DNA from: Novipirellula herctigrandis
GTDB lineage: Bacteria > Planctomycetota > Planctomycetia > Pirellulales > Pirellulaceae
Assembly (NCBI GenBank): GCA_007859835.1
Contig: SJPJ01000001.1
Location: 7,342,543-7,393,186 of the forward strand
DNA length: 50,644 bases
Direction of reading: 5' to 3'
Made by a program: the position numbers and the translations under genes. Under the pieces are notes generated by a model. That model had not been told where the DNA came from. It saw only the letters and a program-made list of their open reading frames with translations, and made no database searches. This document shows positions 10,069 through 49,231 of this stretch, one piece after another (positions within the stretch are counted from its first letter, which is position 1; each line of letters begins with the position of its first letter).

Positions 10069-11376
10069 CTACAAAGTCCGATACTCCTTGCGAATGAATT
10101 CATTTGCTTCAGGCAGGTTGGTGACCTTTACGGCTTTGGCATCCCATACCAATTTTTGTTTCGGGAATTTTGCCGCGATCACACCTAAATGCAGGGATTC
10201 CATGATCGGCGTTGCGTAGGCAAAATCGGCGCTCGCCTGGCCTTTGCCTTCGATTGCGTCGATGAACTCGTGGTAGTGATTGAGTGTTTTTAGAACTGGG
10301 GTCTCGGACTTGGCGTTGGCGTCGTTGAGACGCACGATCGGAGTTGAACAGTGTGGTAATAGCATGCGACCGTGTTCGCCGATGAACAATGAGCCTTGCA
10401 ACGCTATCTTGCCATTTTCCAACGTCAGTTCGGCGTAATCGACATCAGGTCGGTTTTGCCCGTCATACCAAGTAAACCGAAAATCATCGGTCGTGTACTT
10501 GGTTGGTGCAAACCCATAATTGACGATATTGCTTTCGGGATGGCTAAAGCCGTTCGGGGCGCGGCAGGTCGTTTCCGCATCGGTCGCGGCCTGTAATTCC
10601 AATGCCCGGAATGGCGTATCGATGATGTGGACCCCCATGTCTCCCAGGGTTCCACACCCGAAATCGATGATGCGACGCCAGTTCTTCGGATGATATTTCT
10701 TACCAAGGTAAGGACGAACCGGTGCGGTTCCAAGCCACAAATTCCAATCGAGGCTGGCGGGAATCGGGTCCTCGCCTTGGTAGGGTGCTCCATCAAAGCC
10801 CCAATTCTTGTTGGACCAGGCATGCACTTTTCTGATTTTTCCAAGAACACCACTTTGGATGATCTCCGTCGCTGAACGGTACGCGCCTGATCCATGATTC
10901 TGGATTCCCATTTGGGTTACCAGTTTTCGTTCGTTGGCAATTTGCAGTAAATGACGCCCTTCTTCAATGGTGTGCGTCAATGGTTTTTGAGTGTAAGCGT
11001 GCTTTCCCATTTCCATCGCTGCCAACGTAGCTGGATAGTGGGTGTGGTCTGGGGTCGAAACCGAGACGGCATCGATTTTGTCGCCCAGTTCGCTGAACAT
11101 CTCCCGGTAGTCCTGGAAGAATTGTGCGCTACTGTACTTCTGGAGCGCCGCTTCGGATTTGCTGAGTGCCGTATCGACATCACACAGACCAATGACTTGA
11201 ACATGGGGATGGCTTGCGATCGAAGAAGTGTCTGAACGGCCCTTTCCGCCGATCCCAATATGCGCAGTGCAAAGTTTTTCGTTTGGCGAATCCGCCCATA
11301 CGTGGGATGGCAATATCATAAAACTGGATACTGCGGCGGACGTTTTGACGAAGTTTCTACGGGTTACGTTATTCAT
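10069..11376 (-). CDS. Tat-exported Gfo/Idh/MocA-family oxidoreductase
   Basis: 435 residues from ATG 11376 (an adjacent ATG at 11379 is equally possible; a longer frame to 11472 lacks protein character). It starts TRRNFVKTSAAVSSF, a twin-arginine signal, so it should be exported folded with its cofactor. A Rossmann motif GIGGKG (41-46) binds NAD(P). QKP at 130-132 is the variant of the family EKP motif that carries the catalytic Lys (K131), and HTHYP (111-115) is typical. Family members oxidise sugars or glycosides, often at C3. It lies downstream of a sulfatase-DUF1080 fusion on the same strand, which suggests oxidation of a glycoside to a 3-keto form for DUF1080 to cleave. The substrate is unknown. 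Confidence 0.9.
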   Translation of the reverse strand: MNNVTRRNFVKTSAAVSSFMILPSHVWADSPNEKLCTAHIGIGGKGRSDTSSIASHPHVQVIGLCDVDTALSKSEAALQKYSSAQFFQDYREMFSELGDKIDAVSVSTPDHTHYPATLAAMEMGKHAYTQKPLTHTIEEGRHLLQIANERKLVTQMGIQNHGSGAYRSATEIIQSGVLGKIRKVHAWSNKNWGFDGAPYQGEDPIPASLDWNLWLGTAPVRPYLGKKYHPKNWRRIIDFGCGTLGDMGVHIIDTPFRALELQAATDAETTCRAPNGFSHPESNIVNYGFAPTKYTTDDFRFTWYDGQNRPDVDYAELTLENGKIALQGSLFIGEHGRMLLPHCSTPIVRLNDANAKSETPVLKTLNHYHEFIDAIEGKGQASADFAYATPIMESLHLGVIAAKFPKQKLVWDAKAVKVTNLPEANEFIRKEYRTL

Positions 11377-11481
11377 CATGGTCTCGGCTATTTCAGGTCT
11401 TGGATTGTCTGGACAGTTCGTCAACGATTTCTGGATGTGGCTCGGCAAGATGAGCGGTCTCTTCAAGATCATCCTTTAGTG

Positions 11482-11809
11482 TTACTTCTTGTTCTTTGCA
11501 TTGTCGGTATTCTCGTTCCCTCGGTTTTTCTTCACTTTCTTTTCCCTTTCTACGACTGTGCCCGTGTAGGTAGGATTGGGTTGGTCGGGAACCGGAGTCT
11601 TGATCTGTTTGATCCAGGCAAGCAAATCCTTGGTCAATCCATCTCGTTTCTCTGTTTCGGAGCGCTGCGTAATCCGCATCTTACCAATTCATGTCATCGA
11701 TATCCAAAATGGCGATGTTTGGTTTCTGTTCCTGTGTGAAACCGATATTGGTTGACAATGCGAGCAGCCAGCAAGTGCTGATAAGAGTTAGGATACGACG
11801 AATCGTCAT
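11482..11809 (-). pseudogene. Sulfatase remnant with internal deletion
   Basis: The N-terminal piece from ATG 11809 has a signal peptide and the start of a sulfatase (QKPNIAILDIDDMNW) and stops at TAA 11681-11683. Immediately after, in another frame (from 11679), comes a typical sulfatase C-terminus (LTKDLLAWIKQIKTPVP, then PNPTY and a Lys-rich tail). Roughly 400 codons, including the active-site cysteine, are missing. I read this as an intact sulfatase that lost its middle. The next gene on this strand starts 105 bases downstream, so the remnant probably remains part of the transcript. A tiny secreted peptide of 42 residues could still be made. Confidence 0.8.
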
Positions 11810-11903
11810 GTGTGAGGCTCTTGCTAAATCAGTGGTTAGTTCGGCGCGAAGTGCGTGTTGAATGTGTCTACGGTTTGTTGGTCGCATCCGATTTGCCACC
11901 GTT

Positions 11904-13970
11904 TTATTTCGGGGCCGCGCCGTCACTGCCAAGTGTCTTTATCCGAACGTTTCGGAATCGGTGCACCCCTCCTTTGCCATGATGTTGCAGCGCAATCGAC
12001 CCGCTGCGATAGACATCATCCTGAACATCGGTAATGACGATGTCGTTGATCCAGACTTGAATACGGGTTCCCTCGCAACGAATTCGAAAGGTATTCCAAG
12101 CTCCGGGTTTGAACGTGCCTGTATAATCGGTTGCGAACTTGGCTCTGGCCTCGGTGTCTTTTGGCCAGACCCATCCGGAGCCGATGGCGTAGATCATCCC
12201 GCTGTCATCGCCTTCAATTTCACATTGATAGCCTTTGAGTTTTTTGTCATTTTCACAATGGAATCCAATTCCAGAGTTATAGGTGTCGTCGGGCATGAAG
12301 ACGTCGACGGTCAGCTCAAAATCATCAAATGTTTCCTCGTGAACCAGCCACAGGTTTTTCCCGGCCAGGATATGTAGCTCACCATCGACAACGGATACTT
12401 CACCTTCAGTGTCGGTTGACCATCCGCTAAGCGTCTTGCCGTCAAACAACGGAGTCCCGTTGGCGTTTTTGCTGCTGTGCCAACTTGGCGTTCCGAACCA
12501 GTCATGCATCTCTTTTTCAAACGGTGCAACAACTTCTTCTGGTTCAGGAAACACACCTTGATCTTGAGTTTCAACCATCCAGACGGAAAGCGCGGCACGC
12601 ATTTGGATGAGCGTTTTTTGATGTTCCGGGTTGTTCGAGCCAGCTAGATTGTTGATTTCGTGAGGGTCTTTTTCTGTGTCAAACAATTGCTCCTCAGGAA
12701 CCGTTGGGGCCATCAACGCAGCGGCTGGGCCTGATAACTTGCCCTCTGCCATCAGCTGTCGCATCAGCGGCTTAATCGGAAAGCACTTTTCTTTGTAGCG
12801 GTTTAGCGAGGTAAAATGTCGTTCTGGGAAGTAGTTGCGAAGATAGTGATACTTCTTCCCGCGGACACTTCGAATGCGATTGACGGTCTCGTCAATGCGG
12901 TCGCGGGCCGAGAATGCGTACTGGCGTTCTGGGCCTAGCCTATCACCCATGAAAACACGTCCTTGCATTCCCAGTGGGCGAGCGATTCCTGCAAATCCAA
13001 GTGTGGTTGGGGTGATGTCGATCAGGCTAATCACCTGATCATTGACGGCCCCTGCTTGGTAGTTGTTTGGTGCGGGGAAATTTCGGGGCCAACGGATGAT
13101 CATGGGAACGTGCAGCCCGGTATCGTAACACCAGTGAATGCCGCGTGGTTCAATTCGACCGTTGTCGCCAAAAAACATGATGATTGTATTGTCCGCAAGG
13201 CCATCTTTTTCGAGCTGAGCCAAAACGCGACCAATCGTCTTGTCCATCCCTGAAACAGAGTTCAGGTAGCGAGCCCACTCTTTTTTGACAAGCGGATGAT
13301 CGGGGTAATAGGGCGGCGGGGTGACGTTATCGACCGTTGCGATTTGCTCGTGTGTCTTTTCGCCTTTCCATTGAACACGGGGTTGTTTCCATGTTTGCCG
13401 ATCATAAATGTCATACTCTGCCTCGAGCGTATTGATTTGAGCAAAGAAGGGCTGGTTGCCCTTGAGGTCTTCCCACTTGTCGGTGTCGTAAAGCTTTCCT
13501 TCTTCGACAAAGTTCAGGTCTAGTTTTCCGGAGCCGACCTGTTCTTCTCCCATCGTTGCGATGTTACCTGTGAAGTAGCCGACATCTTTGAGGCGGTGGG
13601 TAATGGGGCGAACGCCCTCAGGGAGCCGGTAACCATCCTCGCGATGCGAACGCATGTTGTGTGTGTCAGTGGTTGTTTGATACATGCCCACAAAGAACGC
13701 GCTGCGACTGGGAGCACACACGGGCGAGGTTGAAAATACGTGTGTGTATCGCACTCCCTTTTCGGCAAGACCATCGAGCGCAGGAGTTTTGACATTTTTG
13801 GCACCGTAACATCCGAGGTCGAGCTTCAGGTTTTCTCCAACGATCCAGAGAATATTCGGCTGAGGCTTCGCCCTGTTTTCAACAGCGTTTGCAATGGCTG
13901 ATAGCGAAAGGCTGAACAACACGACAATGGACAGCAGTGACAAACGAGCGTTTTGACTAAAAATGTTCAT
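11904..13970 (-). CDS. Sulfatase fused to a DUF1080 (3-keto-glycoside hydrolase-type) domain
   Basis: 688 residues from ATG 13970, chosen because it begins the signal peptide; a longer frame reaches 14033. Sulfatase domain about 37-490, with active-site C-A-P-S-R (C85-R89). The usual calcium Asp pair is replaced by E46-N47 in WIVGENLKLDLGCYG. MFFGDNG supplies the second Asp/Asn pair. A second domain (about 500-685; PLFDGKTLSGW...GAWNTFRIRCEG...IALQHHGKGG) matches DUF1080, a beta-jelly-roll family with members that cleave 3-keto-glycosides. One polypeptide would thus remove sulfate and attack an oxidised glycoside. It leads a minus-strand group with a sulfatase remnant and a Tat-exported oxidoreductase. 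Confidence 0.92.
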   Translation of the reverse strand: MNIFSQNARLSLLSIVVLFSLSLSAIANAVENRAKPQPNILWIVGENLKLDLGCYGAKNVKTPALDGLAEKGVRYTHVFSTSPVCAPSRSAFFVGMYQTTTDTHNMRSHREDGYRLPEGVRPITHRLKDVGYFTGNIATMGEEQVGSGKLDLNFVEEGKLYDTDKWEDLKGNQPFFAQINTLEAEYDIYDRQTWKQPRVQWKGEKTHEQIATVDNVTPPPYYPDHPLVKKEWARYLNSVSGMDKTIGRVLAQLEKDGLADNTIIMFFGDNGRIEPRGIHWCYDTGLHVPMIIRWPRNFPAPNNYQAGAVNDQVISLIDITPTTLGFAGIARPLGMQGRVFMGDRLGPERQYAFSARDRIDETVNRIRSVRGKKYHYLRNYFPERHFTSLNRYKEKCFPIKPLMRQLMAEGKLSGPAAALMAPTVPEEQLFDTEKDPHEINNLAGSNNPEHQKTLIQMRAALSVWMVETQDQGVFPEPEEVVAPFEKEMHDWFGTPSWHSSKNANGTPLFDGKTLSGWSTDTEGEVSVVDGELHILAGKNLWLVHEETFDDFELTVDVFMPDDTYNSGIGFHCENDKKLKGYQCEIEGDDSGMIYAIGSGWVWPKDTEARAKFATDYTGTFKPGAWNTFRIRCEGTRIQVWINDIVITDVQDDVYRSGSIALQHHGKGGVHRFRNVRIKTLGSDGAAPK

Positions 13971-14528: not shown

Positions 14529-16397
14529 ATGCCTCGATCTTCCAACTATTTTCTCCCGCTTCTGTTGCTGATGTTGTTTTGTCGACTTTCGTTTGCGGCT
14601 GACCAACCAAACATTCTTTGGCTGACGTGCGAAGACAACAACGTCAACTGGGTTGGTTGCTATGGGAATCCTCATGCGGATACGCCGAACATCGATGGCC
14701 TTGCTGCGGAGGGTTTTCAATACATGCACTGTTACGCCAACGCGCCGGTCTGCGCACCATCTCGAAGTACGTGGATTACCGGCGTGCATGCTCTATCGAT
14801 GGGCACACATCCGATGCGGAGTCGATATCCGATTCCTCATGACACGATCAGCTACTACCCGGATCTGCTGAAGCAGGCTGGCTACTTCGTCGGGAACGCG
14901 AAGAAAACGGACTACAATATCGGCGGCCGAAGTGACGGGGACGCGTGGGACACGAACAAGGTTGATTTCGGTGAGCTGAAAAAACAGCAACCCTTCTTTA
15001 TGGTCGTCAACAATACGAAGTCACACGAATCCAAAGCGTTCGGCGACGTCAACCACACGACTCACAGCCCGGACGACGTGCGGCTTGCGAAATACCATCC
15101 TGACATTCCAGACATCCGCAAAAACTATGCTCACTACCATGACCAGATGAAGAAGATGGACGCCGACATCGGCTTGGCTCTGGAGGAGCTTGAACGCTCT
15201 GGTCTCGCGGAGAACACGATCGTGATCCACAACTCCGATCACGGTGGCGTGATTGCTCGCAGCAAACGGTTCCTGTTCAACAGTGGAACGCACTGCCCCT
15301 TGATCATCCGGATACCGGAAAAGTTCAAACATCTGCGCCCCGCAAAACCGGGCACAAAGATCAACGACTTGGTCAGCTTCATCGACATGACGAAAACGTG
15401 GTTAGATATTTGCGGGGCTGAGACGCCGGGCTACCTTCAAGGGAAAGTGTTTTTAGGCCCAAACAAGGAATCTCGCGACTATCACGTCAGCTTTCGAGCC
15501 CGCATGGATGAGCGCTGCGACAACGTTCGAGCGATCCGTGATCGCGACGGCAAGTTTCTCTACATTCGCAATTACATGCCTTATGCACCGTGGGGTCAGC
15601 ACTTGAACTACCTATGGACGATGAAAGCGACACAGGCTTGGGAGCAATATCACAAGGAAGGAAAGACGGATGCCGTGACTGGCCGCTTCTTCGGCACCAA
15701 GCCGATGCACGAGTTGTATGACACGACGGTCGATCCCGACAACGTCAACAATCTCGTCGATGATCCAAAGTACGCGAAAGAGGTCACCAGACTCAGCAAG
15801 GCTCTCGATGCGTGGCAGCTGAAGAACTTTGATTCGGGCCTGCTTCCGGAGAGCGAGATCGTCAAGATCTCAGAGCAGACTGGCAAGACAATTTATGAGG
15901 TCGTTCGTGACCCAAAGCTGTACGATCTCAAACGCTATCAGGAACTTTCGGCCACGGCACTGTCGCCAAAATTCGGAATGGTGGAACAGTCAATTTGCTC
16001 GTGTGCCATGGCCGAAGTCGATGCGGGAGCTCGCTACTGGGGAATGGTGGGTCTTTTCAATATGCAGCAGACAAGAGAGATCGACCTGGATTTTGTTCGA
16101 GAATATCTGACCGATGAATCGCACCATGTTCGTATCATGGCGGCATGGATACTCTACCGAAGCGGCGACAAATTGTCCGCTCAGGAATGCTGGAATGAAC
16201 TGTTGCGAGACAGCTCCTATGCGTCATTGAAGATCTTCAACATCATCGACTGGATCGGCGAAGGGACCGAGCCGTACGCTGCCGCCATGAAATCTTGTGA
16301 GTTCAGTCACGGAGGCTATGTCGGTCGTATGCAGCAATATTTCGGCGTAAAGCCAAAGACGCAGAAGAAGAAACGCGGCAAGAAGACCGGCAAGTAG
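14529..16397 (+). CDS. Exported S1-family sulfatase with C-terminal helical extension (N-sulfatase-like branch)
   Basis: 622 residues. Signal peptide about 1-23 (ending SFAA). Active site C-A-P-S-R (C75-R79). The first metal-site pair is E35-D36 in LTCEDNNVNWVGCYG, as in the heparan N-sulfatase (SGSH)-like branch. HNSDHGG supplies the second metal site. After the sulfatase core (to about 465) there is a ~140-residue helical extension with HEAT-like features (YLTDESHHVRIMAAWILYRSG), and the protein ends with a very basic tail (KTQKKKRGKKTGK). It starts a closely spaced plus-strand run to 24911 (gap to next gene 60 bases). Substrate unknown. Confidence 0.94.
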   Translation: MPRSSNYFLPLLLLMLFCRLSFAADQPNILWLTCEDNNVNWVGCYGNPHADTPNIDGLAAEGFQYMHCYANAPVCAPSRSTWITGVHALSMGTHPMRSRYPIPHDTISYYPDLLKQAGYFVGNAKKTDYNIGGRSDGDAWDTNKVDFGELKKQQPFFMVVNNTKSHESKAFGDVNHTTHSPDDVRLAKYHPDIPDIRKNYAHYHDQMKKMDADIGLALEELERSGLAENTIVIHNSDHGGVIARSKRFLFNSGTHCPLIIRIPEKFKHLRPAKPGTKINDLVSFIDMTKTWLDICGAETPGYLQGKVFLGPNKESRDYHVSFRARMDERCDNVRAIRDRDGKFLYIRNYMPYAPWGQHLNYLWTMKATQAWEQYHKEGKTDAVTGRFFGTKPMHELYDTTVDPDNVNNLVDDPKYAKEVTRLSKALDAWQLKNFDSGLLPESEIVKISEQTGKTIYEVVRDPKLYDLKRYQELSATALSPKFGMVEQSICSCAMAEVDAGARYWGMVGLFNMQQTREIDLDFVREYLTDESHHVRIMAAWILYRSGDKLSAQECWNELLRDSSYASLKIFNIIDWIGEGTEPYAAAMKSCEFSHGGYVGRMQQYFGVKPKTQKKKRGKKTGK

Positions 16398-19510: not shown

Positions 19511-20275
19511 ATGAAGATTCCTCTACATCTCATTGTAATTCTTCTGCTCGCGCCACCGACATCGACAGCCCTCGGGCAGGACGCATCCGGCTCTGAAAAG
19601 GTTGCCGGTGGTACTGGTCAACTTGAATCGGCCACGCCCCCAAGAGCGGATCCGAAGAGTTTGTTCAACGGCAAGGACTTGACCGGTTGGCATGTCGACG
19701 TGCCTCGCAAGGACAAGAATCCGGACATCAAACCGACGTTCATTGTCCGTGACGGCAAACTTGTCAGCCTTGGCAATCCGCAGGGACATCTGATCACCGA
19801 TGCGAAATACGAGAATTATCGTCTTGAGGTCGAATACCGTTTCGCAGGCAAGCCGGGCAACTGCGGTGTCTTAGTGCATGCTTCAACGCCTCGAATGCTC
19901 TACAAAATGTTTCCGAAATCAATCGAAGTTCAGATGAACCATACGCACGCTGGCGACTTCTGGTGCATTGGTGCAGACATTACCGTTCCGGACATGATCA
20001 ACCGGCGAGGTCCAGAGGAGAATTGGGGAGTGATCGAAGGAAAGGGCCGACGTATCCTGAATCTGACAGATGGTTCCGAGAAGCCGATCGGCCAATGGAA
20101 CAAAATGATCATTGAGTGCGTTGATGATGCTGTCAAAGTGAGGGTGAACGGCGATCTGGTTAACCACGGAACAAAGTGCTCAGTCACAAGCGGTCAAATC
20201 GCACTTCAGGCAGAAGGATCGGAAGTCGAATTCCGCAAATTGTTACTCACCCCAATTAGGAAACTGATGGACTGA
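19511..20275 (+). CDS. Exported DUF1080 protein (3-keto-glycoside hydrolase-type)
   Basis: 254 residues, signal peptide about 1-22 (ending ALGQ), then a linker to about 48. The domain covers about 48-250: SLFNGKDLTGWHVD at its start, NYRLEVEYRF, GNCGVLVHAS, SIEVQMNHTHAGDFW, GQWNKMIIEC and IALQAEGSEVEFRKL. This is the DUF1080 jelly-roll family (PF06439-type), in which some members cleave 3-keto-disaccharides or 3-keto-glycosides. It stands alone here but is also present as the C-terminal domain of the 11904-13970 sulfatase. It sits between sulfatase genes in the plus-strand run, consistent with glycan breakdown. The substrate is not known. Confidence 0.9.
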   Translation: MKIPLHLIVILLLAPPTSTALGQDASGSEKVAGGTGQLESATPPRADPKSLFNGKDLTGWHVDVPRKDKNPDIKPTFIVRDGKLVSLGNPQGHLITDAKYENYRLEVEYRFAGKPGNCGVLVHASTPRMLYKMFPKSIEVQMNHTHAGDFWCIGADITVPDMINRRGPEENWGVIEGKGRRILNLTDGSEKPIGQWNKMIIECVDDAVKVRVNGDLVNHGTKCSVTSGQIALQAEGSEVEFRKLLLTPIRKLMD

Positions 20276-35430: not shown

Positions 35431-37053
35431 CTATTCTTTCGGACCGGACGGGGCGGGCACTGGCTGCCCCTTGGTCACTTCGGGCGGCGTGTCGGAGTCA
35501 CGGACTGAAAGATCGGCATAAATGACTCGATAGTTCTTCGAGTCCTTTGGCCGATACCAGAAGATCGGCGTGTCGGCCGCGCCAAACGAAACGCCTTTGC
35601 CCACGTAATGCGCGTTGGCGTTCGGCGAAAGGCGGATGGCGAAATTCAAACCTCGCTGAATTCGTTGCAGAATTTCATTGATCTGGTCTAGCCCGAATTC
35701 CTCGGTCTCCTGCGGCTGGGCTTCCCCAACTTCTTTGGTCTTCAGCCCGTGGGTTTCAATAAACTCTTCCATCTGCTCCGCAATCTGCTCTTCATTCAGC
35801 TTCCCCTCGATCACCGTGTGCATCAGCTCCTCTAACTTGCGCCTCTGCACTTCGTTGGGCTTCCCGGTCGCTGGAGCGAGATTCTCCCAAAAGTTCTGAG
35901 TCATCATCCGGAGAGTGGCCTTCTTCCCAGCGATTGTTGTCGTCGTCAGGAAGTCAAGTGAGTCCGGAAAAGCGCCGTCGAACAGTTCGCTGTATTCGCG
36001 GAACATTTCGATCAGATCCTTCTCTCCCGGCGCGGCCGGGGATCCATCGGCCTTCGCGTTGCGTACCGTGTAGCCGGCCGGCGGCTCAAGGCTGAACAAC
36101 GACTCGTCCATATCAACGTTGAACTCAAAGTCGCTGAACGTCGTTTTCACACTGCCTTCCATTCCCGAAGTCATTTCGAGGCGGACCGGTAGACCGGTTT
36201 CAGGATCGCCCCACAAACTAAAGTCGTGGGGCTGGCTACGAATATGGAACCCGACGACCTTGCGCCCGTCGATCTCCTTCTCGCCCAGTCGTTCGTGTTC
36301 GATGCCTGGCTTATCCTCAGCAACGTGCTGGAACAAACGCAAAAAGACAAAGGCATCGTATTCGAGAGTCTCGTTTTTGCGATTGCGGGTGGAAGTGATG
36401 ACTGTAGCCGTTTTAGACGCGGGATCCAGAGTGAGACTCTTGCCCTGGCTAAAATCCTGAATCACCACAAACTTCGGCATGTCAGGCAGTTCCGTCACCT
36501 GACGCATTCGAGTTCCGCCCAGCGTCATTATCTCGCTCGTTATTGTCCGCGCGGGCGGACCCTTCGTTTCAATAATCATCTTGCACTTAACGGTCTTCGC
36601 TTCGAGGATCGGGGCAGCGAAGTCGGCAAAAGCGAGCACCACGCCGCCGCCCTGGAACAACATGGCAACTCCGATGGCCAAAACAATAATGGCTGCTGCC
36701 GCAATGCGAGAAACTGGGGAACGCATGATCCACCTCCATCTGTTTAGGGAACGTGTCAATCGCGAGGGCTGAATCATCTCCGCCTGAGCGCAAACGAGGG
36801 GCCGCCGAGTTTCCTCCGAGGCGACCGCCGACATCACTCGCTCGACAATGCCGGTTTCCGCGACGTTGACCGGCAATTGTGCATCAGCAAGCGCGCCGCA
36901 CAACTGTGTCAGTTGCCCAAAACGCTCGCGACAATCGGGACATGTCTCGAAATGCCGACGAACATCTCGCTCTTCGTCTGTGGATAGGCAACCGGCCGCC
37001 AGCAAGCTGATCGGCTCGGCCCAAAGTTCGCAGTGGTGATGGAGATCATTCAT
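35431..37053 (-). CDS. Anti-sigma factor with zinc-binding domain and periplasmic LolA-like domain
   Basis: 540 residues. N-terminal zinc-binding anti-sigma domain: H34-x3-C38-x2-C41 in RRHFETCPDCRERF. A single transmembrane segment (about 116-135) separates the cytoplasmic part from a long periplasmic C-terminus. That part begins EAKTVKCKMIIETKGPP, and the two sections around QVTELPDMPKFVVIQDFSQ and FSLWGDPETGLPVRLEMTS resemble the LolA/LppX-like beta fold. The start overlaps the sigma gene end by 8 bases, so sigma and anti-sigma are co-translated. It should hold the sigma factor until the periplasmic domain senses a signal. A lipid or envelope signal is inferred from the fold; the true signal is unknown. 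Confidence 0.85.
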   Translation of the reverse strand: MNDLHHHCELWAEPISLLAAGCLSTDEERDVRRHFETCPDCRERFGQLTQLCGALADAQLPVNVAETGIVERVMSAVASEETRRPLVCAQAEMIQPSRLTRSLNRWRWIMRSPVSRIAAAAIIVLAIGVAMLFQGGGVVLAFADFAAPILEAKTVKCKMIIETKGPPARTITSEIMTLGGTRMRQVTELPDMPKFVVIQDFSQGKSLTLDPASKTATVITSTRNRKNETLEYDAFVFLRLFQHVAEDKPGIEHERLGEKEIDGRKVVGFHIRSQPHDFSLWGDPETGLPVRLEMTSGMEGSVKTTFSDFEFNVDMDESLFSLEPPAGYTVRNAKADGSPAAPGEKDLIEMFREYSELFDGAFPDSLDFLTTTTIAGKKATLRMMTQNFWENLAPATGKPNEVQRRKLEELMHTVIEGKLNEEQIAEQMEEFIETHGLKTKEVGEAQPQETEEFGLDQINEILQRIQRGLNFAIRLSPNANAHYVGKGVSFGAADTPIFWYRPKDSKNYRVIYADLSVRDSDTPPEVTKGQPVPAPSGPKE

Positions 37054-37639
37054 GGTTGCTATCCCGTGATTCCCGGGTCGAAGTGAAAAGGTTCACCTCA
37101 AGATTCATTTGCCGCAATTTTCCCAGCGCGTGATGCAATCGCGACTTCACCGTCCCCAAAGGACAGCCAAGAGCCGCGGCCATCTCATCCAACGTCGCCC
37201 CTGCGAAAAAACGCAACTCCACAACCAGACGATGTGCTTCCGGCAAGCTCGCAACCGCTTGGCGAATCCGGCTGGCATCTTCGGAGGCCTCCGCAGAACG
37301 ACTGGGCGTGCGTGAAGTGCATGGCATTTGGCCAATAGCATCGGGTGTGGCAGACCTGGCGGCGTTCTGGTTTCGCCGTCCTTTCAAGAACCGGTGCCGT
37401 AGAATGCCGTATAGCCAAGTGGAAAACTTGCAACGACAATCAAAACGTGCCAAGGATCGCCACGCTTCGACCAGGGTCTCTTGTGCAAGATCTTCAGCCC
37501 AGTGGCCATCCTTGCAAAGAGCGATCGCGCATCGCCACAGGCGTGCTGCGTGCTGTTCGGCGAGCTGCTCGTAGGCACTCACCTCGCCGGCCCGGGCACG
37601 GTCAATCAACTCGCGTTCATGGTCTTCGGAGATGTTCAC
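37046..37639 (-). CDS. ECF-type RNA polymerase sigma factor
   Basis: 197 residues, GTG start at 37639. Region 2 (about 24-95) carries EDLAQETLVEAWRSLARFD and FSTWLYGILRHRFL, which bind the -10 element and core. Region 4 (about 125-185) has SLPEAHRLVVELRFF and LDEMAAALGCPLGTVKSRLHHALGKLRQ for -35 recognition. Length and domain order are typical of group 4 (ECF) sigma factors. It is translationally coupled to the anti-sigma gene (8-base overlap). Targets are unknown: the adjacent sulfatases or the 38334-43133 cluster are candidates by position only. Confidence 0.95.
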   Translation of the reverse strand: MNISEDHERELIDRARAGEVSAYEQLAEQHAARLWRCAIALCKDGHWAEDLAQETLVEAWRSLARFDCRCKFSTWLYGILRHRFLKGRRNQNAARSATPDAIGQMPCTSRTPSRSAEASEDASRIRQAVASLPEAHRLVVELRFFAGATLDEMAAALGCPLGTVKSRLHHALGKLRQMNLEVNLFTSTRESRDSNHE

Positions 37640-47046: not shown

Positions 47047-48411
47047 TCAAGTATCGGAGGCTACTGCATGGGCCTTCCTGAATTGGCCGGGACTCATTCC
47101 CAACTCGCGTTGAAAGACAGCACATAGCTGACTTGAGTCCCGGAAACCACTACGCCGGGCGACCATCTTGACGGGAAGTTCCGGTTCCAAAAGTTGCCGC
47201 TTCGCGATTTCGAGACGAGCGCACGTGATCTCTTCGCCGACGGTGCGACCGACGGCATCCTTGAAACGCCTTTCCAGCGTGCGTCGCGACAGACTCGCAT
47301 GCGCCGCGACATCGTCAACAGAGATGTGTCGGTGAGCATGTGTTACGATGAAATGCAGGCACTTTGCGACTTCCGCGTCGCTCACGCCGAACGCATCGGT
47401 GGACTGGCGTTTGACGATCGTACGTGGAGGCAAAAACGTTGGTTCCTCCGGTGGTAAGGCCCCCGACATCAACTGCGCAAGTAGACCTGCTGCTCGCATC
47501 CCAACCTGTTGATACCCCACATCAATGCTGGAAAGTTGCGGATTGGTATACTCGCAAACCAGCGGTTCATTTTCTATCGAGACGATTGCCACATCCCGAG
47601 GTACTTGGAGGCCGTGTTGTTCGCATCGCTCAATAATGAATCGGCCAAGAAAATCATCGGACACACAGACGCCGGTCCGCGGTTCCAATCTGCCGACCAA
47701 CTTATCAAGTTGATTCGAGAACGACTGCCATGAAGAGATAGACTGAGAATAGGACCGATTTATCCGATTCACAGAATGTTCAATCGCGATATCGTGCGCC
47801 AATGATTCATAACCGGCGAGTTGCATTTCGACGCCACGATCATTGGAAAATCCAACGTAAGCGAGTCGCCGAAAACCAAGTGACAAAAGATGCTGAGTGG
47901 CCATCTGCCCAGCCTGATGCCAATCTGGATACACACCCGTCAGACCTGTGGCATCCGTGTTCAGCCAAACATTAACGGTAGGGATGTTCCGCTTCTTCAC
48001 TTTGGTCGCCAGCGAACGTCCGATCCGTCCAACGATCCCGTCAAAGCTCCACTTGCGGTGCTGCGAAAATGAAAAATCGGCAACCGGGATCAGAGTTGTC
48101 TCCCAATTGGCGCTGACCGCAACCTGTCGAATGCCTGCTAACACATCGAGTCGCCGGCGAAGTGGATTTTGAACGTCAATCAAAATCGCAACACGTTGTC
48201 TTCTCGTGCTCCGCCTTTCTCCAAAAGTCAGTCTGCCATTGGCTTCCCTGACAAGCACACATCTGGCAACAAGCTGATTGACCGCAGCGCGCACTGGCGA
48301 AAAGCTGACACCATAGTGCTGAGCCAGTGCACCAATTGTCAACTTCGGAGGTCTTTCACCCGATCGAATACGGGCTTCTAGGTCCTGTTCGATGTAACTG
48401 GAGATCGTCAT
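47047..48411 (-). CDS. Three-domain transcription regulator: GntR-like winged helix + LacI/periplasmic-binding-like + AraC-type HTH
   Basis: 454 residues from ATG 48411 (a TTG at 48417 adds two residues). N-terminal winged helix (about 1-65): LTIGALAQHYGVSFSPVRAAVNQLVARCVL, as in GntR. Middle domain (about 70-340) reads like a LacI/XylR sensor: VAILIDVQNPLRRRLDVLAGIRQ, TGLTGVYPDWHQAG, and VCVSDDFLGR...VAIVSIENEPL. C-terminal AraC-type HTH pair (about 350-452): ISVDDVAAHASLSRRTLERRF, then VKMVARRSGFRDSSQLCAVFQREL and MSPGQFRKAH. Two different DNA-binding types on one sensor are uncommon. It should respond to a small ligand, probably a sugar or amino-acid derivative. Targets likely include the adjacent peptidase or the sulfatase/proline genes (position only). 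Confidence 0.9.
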   Translation of the reverse strand: MTISSYIEQDLEARIRSGERPPKLTIGALAQHYGVSFSPVRAAVNQLVARCVLVREANGRLTFGERRSTRRQRVAILIDVQNPLRRRLDVLAGIRQVAVSANWETTLIPVADFSFSQHRKWSFDGIVGRIGRSLATKVKKRNIPTVNVWLNTDATGLTGVYPDWHQAGQMATQHLLSLGFRRLAYVGFSNDRGVEMQLAGYESLAHDIAIEHSVNRINRSYSQSISSWQSFSNQLDKLVGRLEPRTGVCVSDDFLGRFIIERCEQHGLQVPRDVAIVSIENEPLVCEYTNPQLSSIDVGYQQVGMRAAGLLAQLMSGALPPEEPTFLPPRTIVKRQSTDAFGVSDAEVAKCLHFIVTHAHRHISVDDVAAHASLSRRTLERRFKDAVGRTVGEEITCARLEIAKRQLLEPELPVKMVARRSGFRDSSQLCAVFQRELGMSPGQFRKAHAVASDT

Positions 48412-49231
48412 TCGCAACTCATCGCGTTCTAGTCACCAAAGCAATCGATAGCCTACTATGCTTTTGTGCACAATGTCTACTTCGGCGATGGAAATCGGCA
48501 TTCAAGCTCCATAAATACCTGCCACTATGCGCCAGACGAGAAATTTCAGAGGGCCACCGGCTGAAGTTTGGACCAAGTCGCGACTTCGCCACTAAGCCAG
48601 TTCCCTGATCGAGATTGGAATCCCACGACGTTTACGACGAACGATGCTGATGATGTCGGACACGCGCTATCGAATCGTTCCGAATGCGACATCTGATCCT
48701 CAGTGCCTAGTATTGGCACCCACCCCACCATGGACCATTGGTTAACGTGCCGAACGGCTTACCGGGAGTGGGGGTTAGGATCTTCGTTGCTCCGGCTTGT
48801 GACGTGGTGGCCGCTTCCGATGCTTCTTCGATGTGGCCGAGACGGGCGAGTACAACGGCTTGCATCTGCTGAACTAGCCAATCAAGCTTGCTGGCACTTC
48901 CCAATGCGTCAAAAGCGTCTTGGCATTTGCCAGCTCCCACTAAAGCGGCCGACAGTACGCGACGCTTACGTGCCAAAACGACCTCCTGGACAATACTTGA
49001 TCAGCGAGAATTCCAGCAAATCCCAAGCACTGAGGCAATTAAAAATGGATGGCCCCTTCTTGGTTGCTTTGAAAATCTTCCACCTATACCGGAATACTGA
49101 TGCGCGTCCTGTCAAAAAACTCCGACGAACCACCGAGACGGTGATGTGCGATAGAATTGTCGCGAAATGGGTTGATATCTCAGAGGAGGTAGAACGACCA
49201 GTTGACAGAATTGGCAAAGTTTTACGACTCG
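48412..49231. other. Intergenic region with no confirmed gene
   Basis: About 820 bases upstream of the regulator. It should hold the regulator promoter. One minus-strand frame (48707-48976) has TPR-like helical character, listed separately. A long plus-strand frame (48703-49239) ends in the repeat and does not look like protein at its N-terminal side. Confidence 0.4.
48707..48976 (-). CDS. Possible TPR-like fragment
   Basis: An 89-residue open frame with helical repeat-like residues (CQDAFDALGSASKLDWLVQQ, then AVVLARLGHIEEASEA). It might be a gene remnant with a tetratricopeptide-like helix pair. No start signal or known family is visible, and a plus-strand frame covers the same bases, so support is weak. 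Confidence 0.22.
   Translation of the reverse strand: MARKRRVLSAALVGAGKCQDAFDALGSASKLDWLVQQMQAVVLARLGHIEEASEAATTSQAGATKILTPTPGKPFGTLTNGPWWGGCQY

Follow-up and report, generated by a model that had tools for sequence, protein, structure and literature searches.

A sulfatase-DUF1080 fusion beside a Tat-exported oxidoreductase in Novipirellula herctigrandis and its possible place in a desulfation-oxidation-elimination route

In Bacteroides thetaiotaomicron a 3-keto-glycoside pathway of the BT2156-BT2159 type, reportedly described in a Nature paper of 2024, presumably comprises the DUF1080 proteins 8rr2, 9fbe, 8tda and 3osd as well as the dehydrogenase BT2158. Here we analyse a 50,644-nucleotide stretch of the planctomycete Novipirellula herctigrandis (hereafter the window), in which a gene that fuses a sulfatase to a DUF1080 domain (PF06439, now named 3keto-disac_hyd) lies next to a gene for a Tat-exported oxidoreductase of the Gfo/Idh/MocA superfamily (hereafter Gfo). 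Like the Bacteroides system the window has a PF06439 domain and a BT_2158-like Gfo/Idh/MocA oxidoreductase as neighbours. Different from it, the DUF1080 domain is fused to a sulfatase, its motifs are unlike, and the oxidoreductase stays below the equivalog cut-off of the BT_2158 family. For the BT2156-BT2159 operon a role in glucosinolate conversion is described (PMC12385236).

Four further systems invite comparison. In sequence and fold the sulfatase part of the fusion resembles the S1_8 members of the lambda-carrageenan cascade (9bb9, 9bbd, 9bba), and the S1_8 enzymes of this cascade are 2-O-sulfohydrolases, while S1_8 also includes xylose-2-sulfate and N-sulfoglucosamine sulfohydrolases (PMC12549532). 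In that cascade, however, the desulfated sugar is freed by glycoside hydrolases of the usual kind, GH110 and GH2, and the parts of PMC12549532 drawn on here mention no DUF1080 partner. The O-glycoside beta-eliminase pathway of Agrobacterium relies on an eliminase with a TIM-barrel fold together with a Gfo reductase, and its operon combines a TIM-barrel 'sugar phosphate isomerase' with a Gfo gene, as does a gene row of the genome G442 considered below, but as described in the available parts of PMC10628242 it contains neither a sulfatase nor a DUF1080 gene. In Caulobacter a putative periplasmic DUF1080 protein, CCNA_01705, a candidate 3'-ketolactose hydrolase, adjoins the sugar 3-dehydrogenase LacABC; this dehydrogenase is of another kind, and a sulfatase is not mentioned in the corresponding parts of PMC9007349. 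Finally, the CBM66 of Bacillus subtilis levanase (4azz, 4b1l, 4b1m), which is a binding module, shares its fold with the window DUF1080 at 17% identity. Proteins with DUF1080 and PF01408 are described as abundant in planctomycetes (PMC5673643, PMC5352709). DUF1080-Gfo pairs, 3-keto routes and S1_8 sulfatases are known. Literature on a coupling of sulfatase and DUF1080 was not found by title or abstract start, in a search that covered subscription journals thinly, and we know of no earlier case in which a sulfatase is physically coupled to an oxidation-elimination (non-Koshland) route.

The features of the window that bear on such a coupling are the following.
11904..13970, minus strand: sulfatase-DUF1080 fusion gene, 688 residues from the ATG at 13970, in an open frame that extends to 14033 (709 residues)
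12831..13859, minus strand: S1 sulfatase domain of the fusion, residues 59-401 of the 709-residue frame (PF00884, SGSH_C)
11937..12455, minus strand: DUF1080/PF06439 domain of the fusion, residues 527-699, of a sulfatase-linked subfamily (Pfam, alignments, model)
10069..11472, minus strand: Tat-exported Gfo/Idh/MocA oxidoreductase (PF01408, PF19051; twin-arginine motif TRRNF at residue 37)
11473..11903, minus strand: gap of 431 bp with a sulfatase relic, seen in three-frame translation, the middle missing
19511..20275, plus strand: free DUF1080 protein (PF06439, E 1.1e-36), of a type that differs from the fused domain

The two domains of the fusion stand in one frame, PF00884 matching residues 59-350 (E 4.5e-37, with SGSH_C at E 2.1e-11) and PF06439 residues 527-699 (E 8.4e-38). 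The Pfam scores exclude chance for the domain content of the fusion, the oxidoreductase and the free DUF1080 protein, and all three are as a preliminary description of the window had them, with the addition that the gap between the first two holds the relic of a sulfatase. The ATG at 13970 (residue 22 of the 709-residue frame) is the likelier start of the fusion gene, since it is followed by what we read as a Sec-type signal sequence. The formylglycine-type cysteine motif of the sulfatase reads CAPSR at residue 106. In a sequence search of the PDB the S1_8A structure 9bb9 was the best match (E 5.1e-92); together with 9bes, 9bbd, 9bef and 9bba it tops the list (E 5.1e-92 to 3.1e-49), and the next, non-S1_8 entry follows at E 1.2e-24. 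Likewise, all of the 12 top Foldseek matches of the full fusion model were S1_8 structures. By sequence and by model the fusion sulfatase is thus nearest to the S1_8 sulfatases, and probably it is a secreted, exo-acting S1 sulfatase, which would act on sulfated oligosaccharides and take off the 2-O-sulfate at their non-reducing end. In the full model (predicted local distance difference test score, pLDDT, of 87.0; predicted template modelling score of 0.72) residues 521-535 between the domains score below 50, and the orientation of the domains is not readable.

The best solved relatives of the oxidoreductase in the PDB sequence search are the dehydrogenases 8tdf (E 9.3e-55) and 8tdh (E 1.9e-53). 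Among the NCBIfam models it fits NF058561 best, that is, BT_2158_fam, of glycoside 3-dehydrogenases (E 2.1e-90, 303.7 bits, as compared to 67 bits for the next family), and the match is near full-length (protein residues 37-458, model positions 1-437 of 487) but does not reach the equivalog cut-off of 750 bits. Judged from its sequence the protein is a relative, not a proven member, of the BT_2158 family. The proposal of the preliminary description that it could oxidise a sugar at C3 is supported as far as the family resemblance goes, and equivalence falls short at the cut-off. Its motifs QKPL (residue 162) and GDMGVH (residue 277) align with EKPL and GDMACH of 8tdf; the lysine of the KP motif and the histidine of the DMG-x-H motif we take to be catalytic in the Gfo/Idh/MocA superfamily.

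The pairing of sulfatase and DUF1080 recurs in other genomes, which are labelled G (e.g. G257), the loci fetched being labelled L (e.g. L156). DUF1080 domains of the subfamily of the window are fused to other sulfatases in G257, G148, G343 and, partially, at a locus end, in G349 (4 of 29 other loci), and a further sulfatase-DUF1080 fusion is present in G824. Because the fusions of G257 and G824 are 57% identical over 818 columns we count them as one kind, so that three kinds of sulfatase are fused to the subfamily in six genomes, namely that of the window, that of G257 and G824, and that of G148, G343 and G349. The fused domain of the window is 59% identical to that of G257 and 55% to that of G824, the sulfatase part 36% and 31%, respectively. 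A profile of the subfamily, built from six rows including the window and G257, matched at E 1e-40 in 18 of 397 genomes of the class when the best candidates of each genome, at most eight, were scored, and more than 250 bits were reached only by the domains of the window, G257 and G824, all three of them fused. Moreover, a metagenome-assembled genome of the Lentisphaerales (L023) contains a sulfatase orthologue, 75% identical. Behind it, on the same strand, comes the gene of a free DUF1080 protein that belongs to the subfamily, scores 186.7 bits against the fused domain and has a signal-peptide-like start; next is a glucose/sorbosone-dehydrogenase gene that includes a cytochrome c domain. As to the architecture of the other fusions, those at L156:8871-11378 and L214:7991-10480 have a long region between the domains, with a HEAT_2 match in L156, and one stretch of the L156 sulfatase part is missing from the L214 fusion.

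The neighbouring oxidoreductase recurs too. In both G257 and G824 a Gfo gene immediately adjoins the fusion, divergently transcribed, and the encoded proteins match BT_2158_fam with 371 and 366 bits; two of the three kinds of fusion, those of the window and of G257/G824, adjoin a BT_2158-type oxidoreductase. A Gfo protein encoded directly beside the sulfatase orthologue of G416 scores 404 bits, and like neighbours are found at L068 and L076. In a tree, the Gfo proteins of G257 and G824 form a clade with that of G416 (support 100/98), and the window protein stands elsewhere in the same larger group, the fork of which has weak support (81/93, drawn open); we do not claim that it is orthologous to these three. 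The genome G442 belongs to the same family and has an orthologue of the sulfatase that is 86% identical; there, genes for this sulfatase, a TIM barrel (PF01261), Gfo and DUF1080 form a row on one strand, and the DUF1080 protein near this sulfatase is 73% identical (209 columns) to the free one of the window. Sulfatase, TIM barrel and Gfo are found in G569, sulfatase and TIM barrel in G541. The TIM barrel of G442 has no sequence match in the PDB at E 0.001. Considered by itself, the G442 row (L153:5850-10715; DUF1080, Gfo, TIM barrel and an S1_8-type sulfatase) is a candidate for a complete desulfation plus 3-keto route.

The N. herctigrandis genome (9.5 Mb) holds 51 PF06439 matches, 73 Gfo/Idh/MocA matches, of which 72 lie above the cut-off, and at least 150 sulfatases, at least 148 of them on the two main contigs; to our knowledge, most of these proteins have no assigned role. 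For the counting of neighbours a set of about 45 DUF1080 genes was used, together with a sulfatase list that omits two genes on a third contig and the fusion itself. Of the 45 DUF1080 genes, 7 have a Gfo gene at most 2.5 kb away, where 1.66 would be expected (a fraction of 0.001 among 2000 rotations), and 7 lie near one of the at least 148 sulfatases, where 3.22 would be expected (fraction 0.03). DUF1080 genes are not enriched near TIM barrels (0 of 45 at 2.5 kb).

A periplasmic 3-keto route made up of the S1 sulfatase fusion, C3 oxidation by the Gfo enzyme and elimination by a DUF1080 protein is the reading that we tentatively favour, while placing it somewhat short of an even chance. In such a route the sulfatase would free the 2-hydroxyl of the terminal sugar, the Tat-exported Gfo/Idh/MocA enzyme would oxidise C3, and a DUF1080 protein (the fused one, the free one or another of the approximately 45 of the genome) would carry out the beta-elimination at C1-C2 and the rehydration. 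The fused DUF1080, coming from a subfamily dedicated to sulfatases, may handle the same sugar as the sulfatase. Such a sequence makes chemical sense. A hydrogen bond of the C2-hydroxyl has been proposed to aid C2 deprotonation in the Agrobacterium eliminase, in the available parts of PMC10628242, and a 2-O-sulfate would therefore be expected to interfere. The domain content, the nearest families, the recurrent pairing of sulfatase and DUF1080 and the adjacency of BT_2158-type oxidoreductases in two kinds of fusion are observed; the 2-O specificity, the oxidation at C3, the sequence of the reactions and a catalytic instead of a binding role of the fused domain we infer. Altogether a desulfation-oxidation-elimination route is plausible but unproven. 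The link between desulfation and oxidation-elimination that the preliminary description had drawn gains from the clustering of DUF1080 with Gfo genes, from G257 and G824 and from the row in G442, but finds no echo in the surroundings of most sulfatase orthologues examined; its view of DUF1080 as a 3-keto-glycoside cleaver agrees with the fold, while the missing Glu and Arg of the fused domain and the altered motif of the free protein speak against it, as set out below. A stronger form, in which one secreted polypeptide is a bifunctional desulfating lyase that removes the 2-O-sulfate and then, after C3 oxidation by the neighbouring dehydrogenase, eliminates the aglycone, we consider unlikely. 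If true, it would be the first case known to us of a sulfatase joined to oxidation-elimination, and one built with three kinds of sulfatase.

A number of observations weigh against the route. No Gfo gene was detected by profile near the fusions of G148 and G343 (16 and 14 kb covered), the Gfo protein of the G442 row does not belong to the BT_2158 type (34.6 bits), and the G442 TIM barrel is only partially matched in the N. herctigrandis genome (E 8.9e-21, residues 173-348, 37% identical). In the N. herctigrandis genome Gfo genes show no enrichment around sulfatases (5 of 72 as compared to 4.73 expected, fraction 0.51, with the at least 148 sulfatases). Among 30 loci around the best matches of the window Gfo, the window included, none of the 29 from other genomes has a DUF1080 gene within approximately 1.5 kb, and 23 of the 29 have no sulfatase within that distance; five of the six that do are from the genus g329. 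Nor is the fusion itself common. Orthologues of the sulfatase were collected from 199 genomes of the family, where the best candidates of each genome, at most five, were scored; this set overlaps one of 80 public loci, in that 15 orthologue loci from G genomes are the same genes as public loci. Among the matches listed for the family genomes the orthologues are 58-87% identical and match only to approximately residue 530-543, and fusion to DUF1080 occurs in none of the 80 public loci and in none of the matches listed for the 199 genomes. Conservation of the fusion in the lineage is ruled out, the window being the sole full-length match listed. At L049 and L065, of the Opitutaceae, the orthologues lie in 894-residue frames with a C-terminal extension of 385 residues, in which no DUF1080 was found.

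The gene neighbourhoods of the orthologues, taken as two genes on each side, point the same way. From 108 loci, 6 were dropped because the target was missing from the gene calls. This left 102 loci, which represent 87 distinct genes (15 duplicates), among them L066, where the gene caller picked another sulfatase. Within two genes of the orthologue a Gfo gene was found in 8, a TIM barrel in 4 and a DUF1080 gene in 4 of the 87. The respective numbers are 3, 4 and 0 for 27 loci of the same family and 0, 0 and 1 for 20 control sulfatases, all four neighbours being available in 77 of the 102 orthologue loci, 23 of the 27 same-family loci and 12 of the 20 controls. We do not count these differences as enrichment. 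We therefore reject a general tie of this S1_8 sulfatase to Gfo or DUF1080 genes, as the counts are not clearly separate from the 20 controls.

The remaining points against the route concern the DUF1080 proteins themselves. In an alignment of 29 DUF1080 domains (MAFFT) the sulfatase-linked subfamily has six rows, from the window, L023, G257 (L156), G148 (L158), G343 (L159) and G220 (L118; no sulfatase observed with it), which were compared to 18 other rows of the same type. Glu617 is present in none of the six as compared to all 18 others, Arg619 in none as compared to 17 of 18, and position 616 is acidic in 18 of 18 others and in two of the six, the window not among them. At position 592 the window has histidine, whereas the other five subfamily rows and 17 of the 18 others (one reading X) have arginine. 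Retained in all six rows are Gln603, Glu605, Asn647 and Gln683, and in four, the window included, also His685. The proven eliminases 8rr2 and 8tda carry the motifs E-x-Q and QDHG. The fused domain has Q603-x-E605 at the E-x-Q position of the other types and QHHG for QDHG, and the free DUF1080 protein has EVQ but QAEG instead of QDHG. A simple loss of the DUF1080 glutamate, first suggested by HMMER alignments, is ruled out, as the MAFFT alignment shows Gln and Glu swapped between the types. Putative catalytic residues are displayed in a figure of PMC9765024. The motif differences from 8rr2 and 8tda, as read from the alignment, neither prove nor exclude eliminase activity of the fused domain. 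NCBIfam gave no credible model for the seven DUF1080 proteins tested.

Then again, the fused DUF1080 could be a carbohydrate-binding module that anchors the sulfatase without doing any chemistry, the neighbouring oxidoreductase being loosely related; this explanation, our second choice, is likewise a substantial possibility below an even chance. In Foldseek searches with the domain model (pLDDT 92.7) BT3469 (4jqt, 30% identity) ranks first, followed with similar scores by CBM66 and the eliminases/hydratases 8rr2, 9fbe, 8tda and 8v31. CBM66 thereby matches the model equally well, with a query-normalised template modelling (TM) score of 0.68 as compared to 0.63-0.66 for the eliminases (4azz: 0.68 when normalised by query and 0.79 by target, at 17% identity). 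CBM66 moreover matches the DUF1080 profile in sequence (E 3.6e-6), and the two designations overlap in Thermogutta proteins in the account of PMC5673643. DUF1080 is also joined to proteins as unrelated as Gfo enzymes, kinases (according to PMC11032199) and an alginate-lyase protein (according to PMC13027841), and the sulfatase-linked subfamily is without the Glu617 and Arg619 that its relatives retain. On the other hand, the subfamily retains Gln603, Glu605 and Asn647, plus His685 in the window. The role of the fused domain, which may only bind, is by our estimate roughly even between catalysis and binding. What inclines us slightly to the 3-keto route is that L023 encodes a member of the subfamily that stands alone, with a sulfatase and a sugar dehydrogenase as neighbours, and that the altered loop, IYAIGSGWVWPK, is identical in the fused domains of the window, G257 and G824 and thus conserved, not decayed. 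The subfamily is a small set of proteins with which to ask whether oxidation-elimination, and not hydrolysis, opens sulfated sugars; should its role be binding only, it would still define a new accessory domain of sulfatases. Fusions of Gfo and DUF1080 in one gene were found in G287 (by Pfam) and G142. In the Gfo/Idh/MocA-DUF1080 single-gene fusions L160:8394-10898, whose C-terminus is CBM35-like, and L161:9403-11895, the DUF1080 domains retain the equivalents of Glu617 and Arg619 that are absent from the sulfatase-linked ones.

That the adjacency is incidental, the fused sulfatase lying in a dense sulfatase cluster near one of 72 Gfo genes without any connection between desulfation and 3-keto chemistry, is improbable, for although the missing enrichment of Gfo near sulfatases, the sheer number of sulfatases on the two main contigs and the other settings of most sulfatase orthologues and Gfo relatives examined would fit it, BT_2158-type Gfo genes adjoin two kinds of fusion as well as the orthologue in G416, with like neighbours in L068 and L076 and the four-gene row in G442.

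The gap between the fusion and the oxidoreductase gene contains a signal peptide followed by KPNIAILDIDDMNW and then a stop, as well as a sulfatase-like C-terminal tail. This N-terminal piece has no match at E 0.01, and we read it as a putative sulfatase start; the C-terminal tail weakly matches sulfatase C-termini (best E 4e-5). The simplest account is that the relic is a sulfatase gene whose middle was lost, and the earlier order on one strand was therefore probably sulfatase-DUF1080, sulfatase, oxidoreductase.

The surroundings are rich in sulfatases, with PF00884 found by Pfam in 16 of the 30 window proteins scanned. A pattern search detects the cysteine-type maturation motif in 15 of the 16, and the sixteenth (16458) reads CSTSR. 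One of the 16 lies divergent from the fusion gene:
14529..16397, plus strand: sulfatase (Pfam)
Of all sulfatases in the window it bears the closest resemblance to those that are fused to DUF1080 in G257 and G824.

A scan for promoters and terminators gave no excess relative to shuffled sequences. At the edge of the sulfatase cluster an ECF (extracytoplasmic function) sigma factor (37046-37639) and an adjoining, anti-sigma-like zf-HC2 protein (35431-37053) are encoded, a pair that is a possible regulator of the cluster. Positions 47047-48417 encode a single protein that is an AraC-type regulator with sugar-binding LacI-like and GntR-like domains. Elsewhere in the N. herctigrandis genome, at L221:7132-13451, AP_endonuc_2, DUF1080 and Gfo genes lie inside approximately 6 kb and form another candidate 3-keto cluster.

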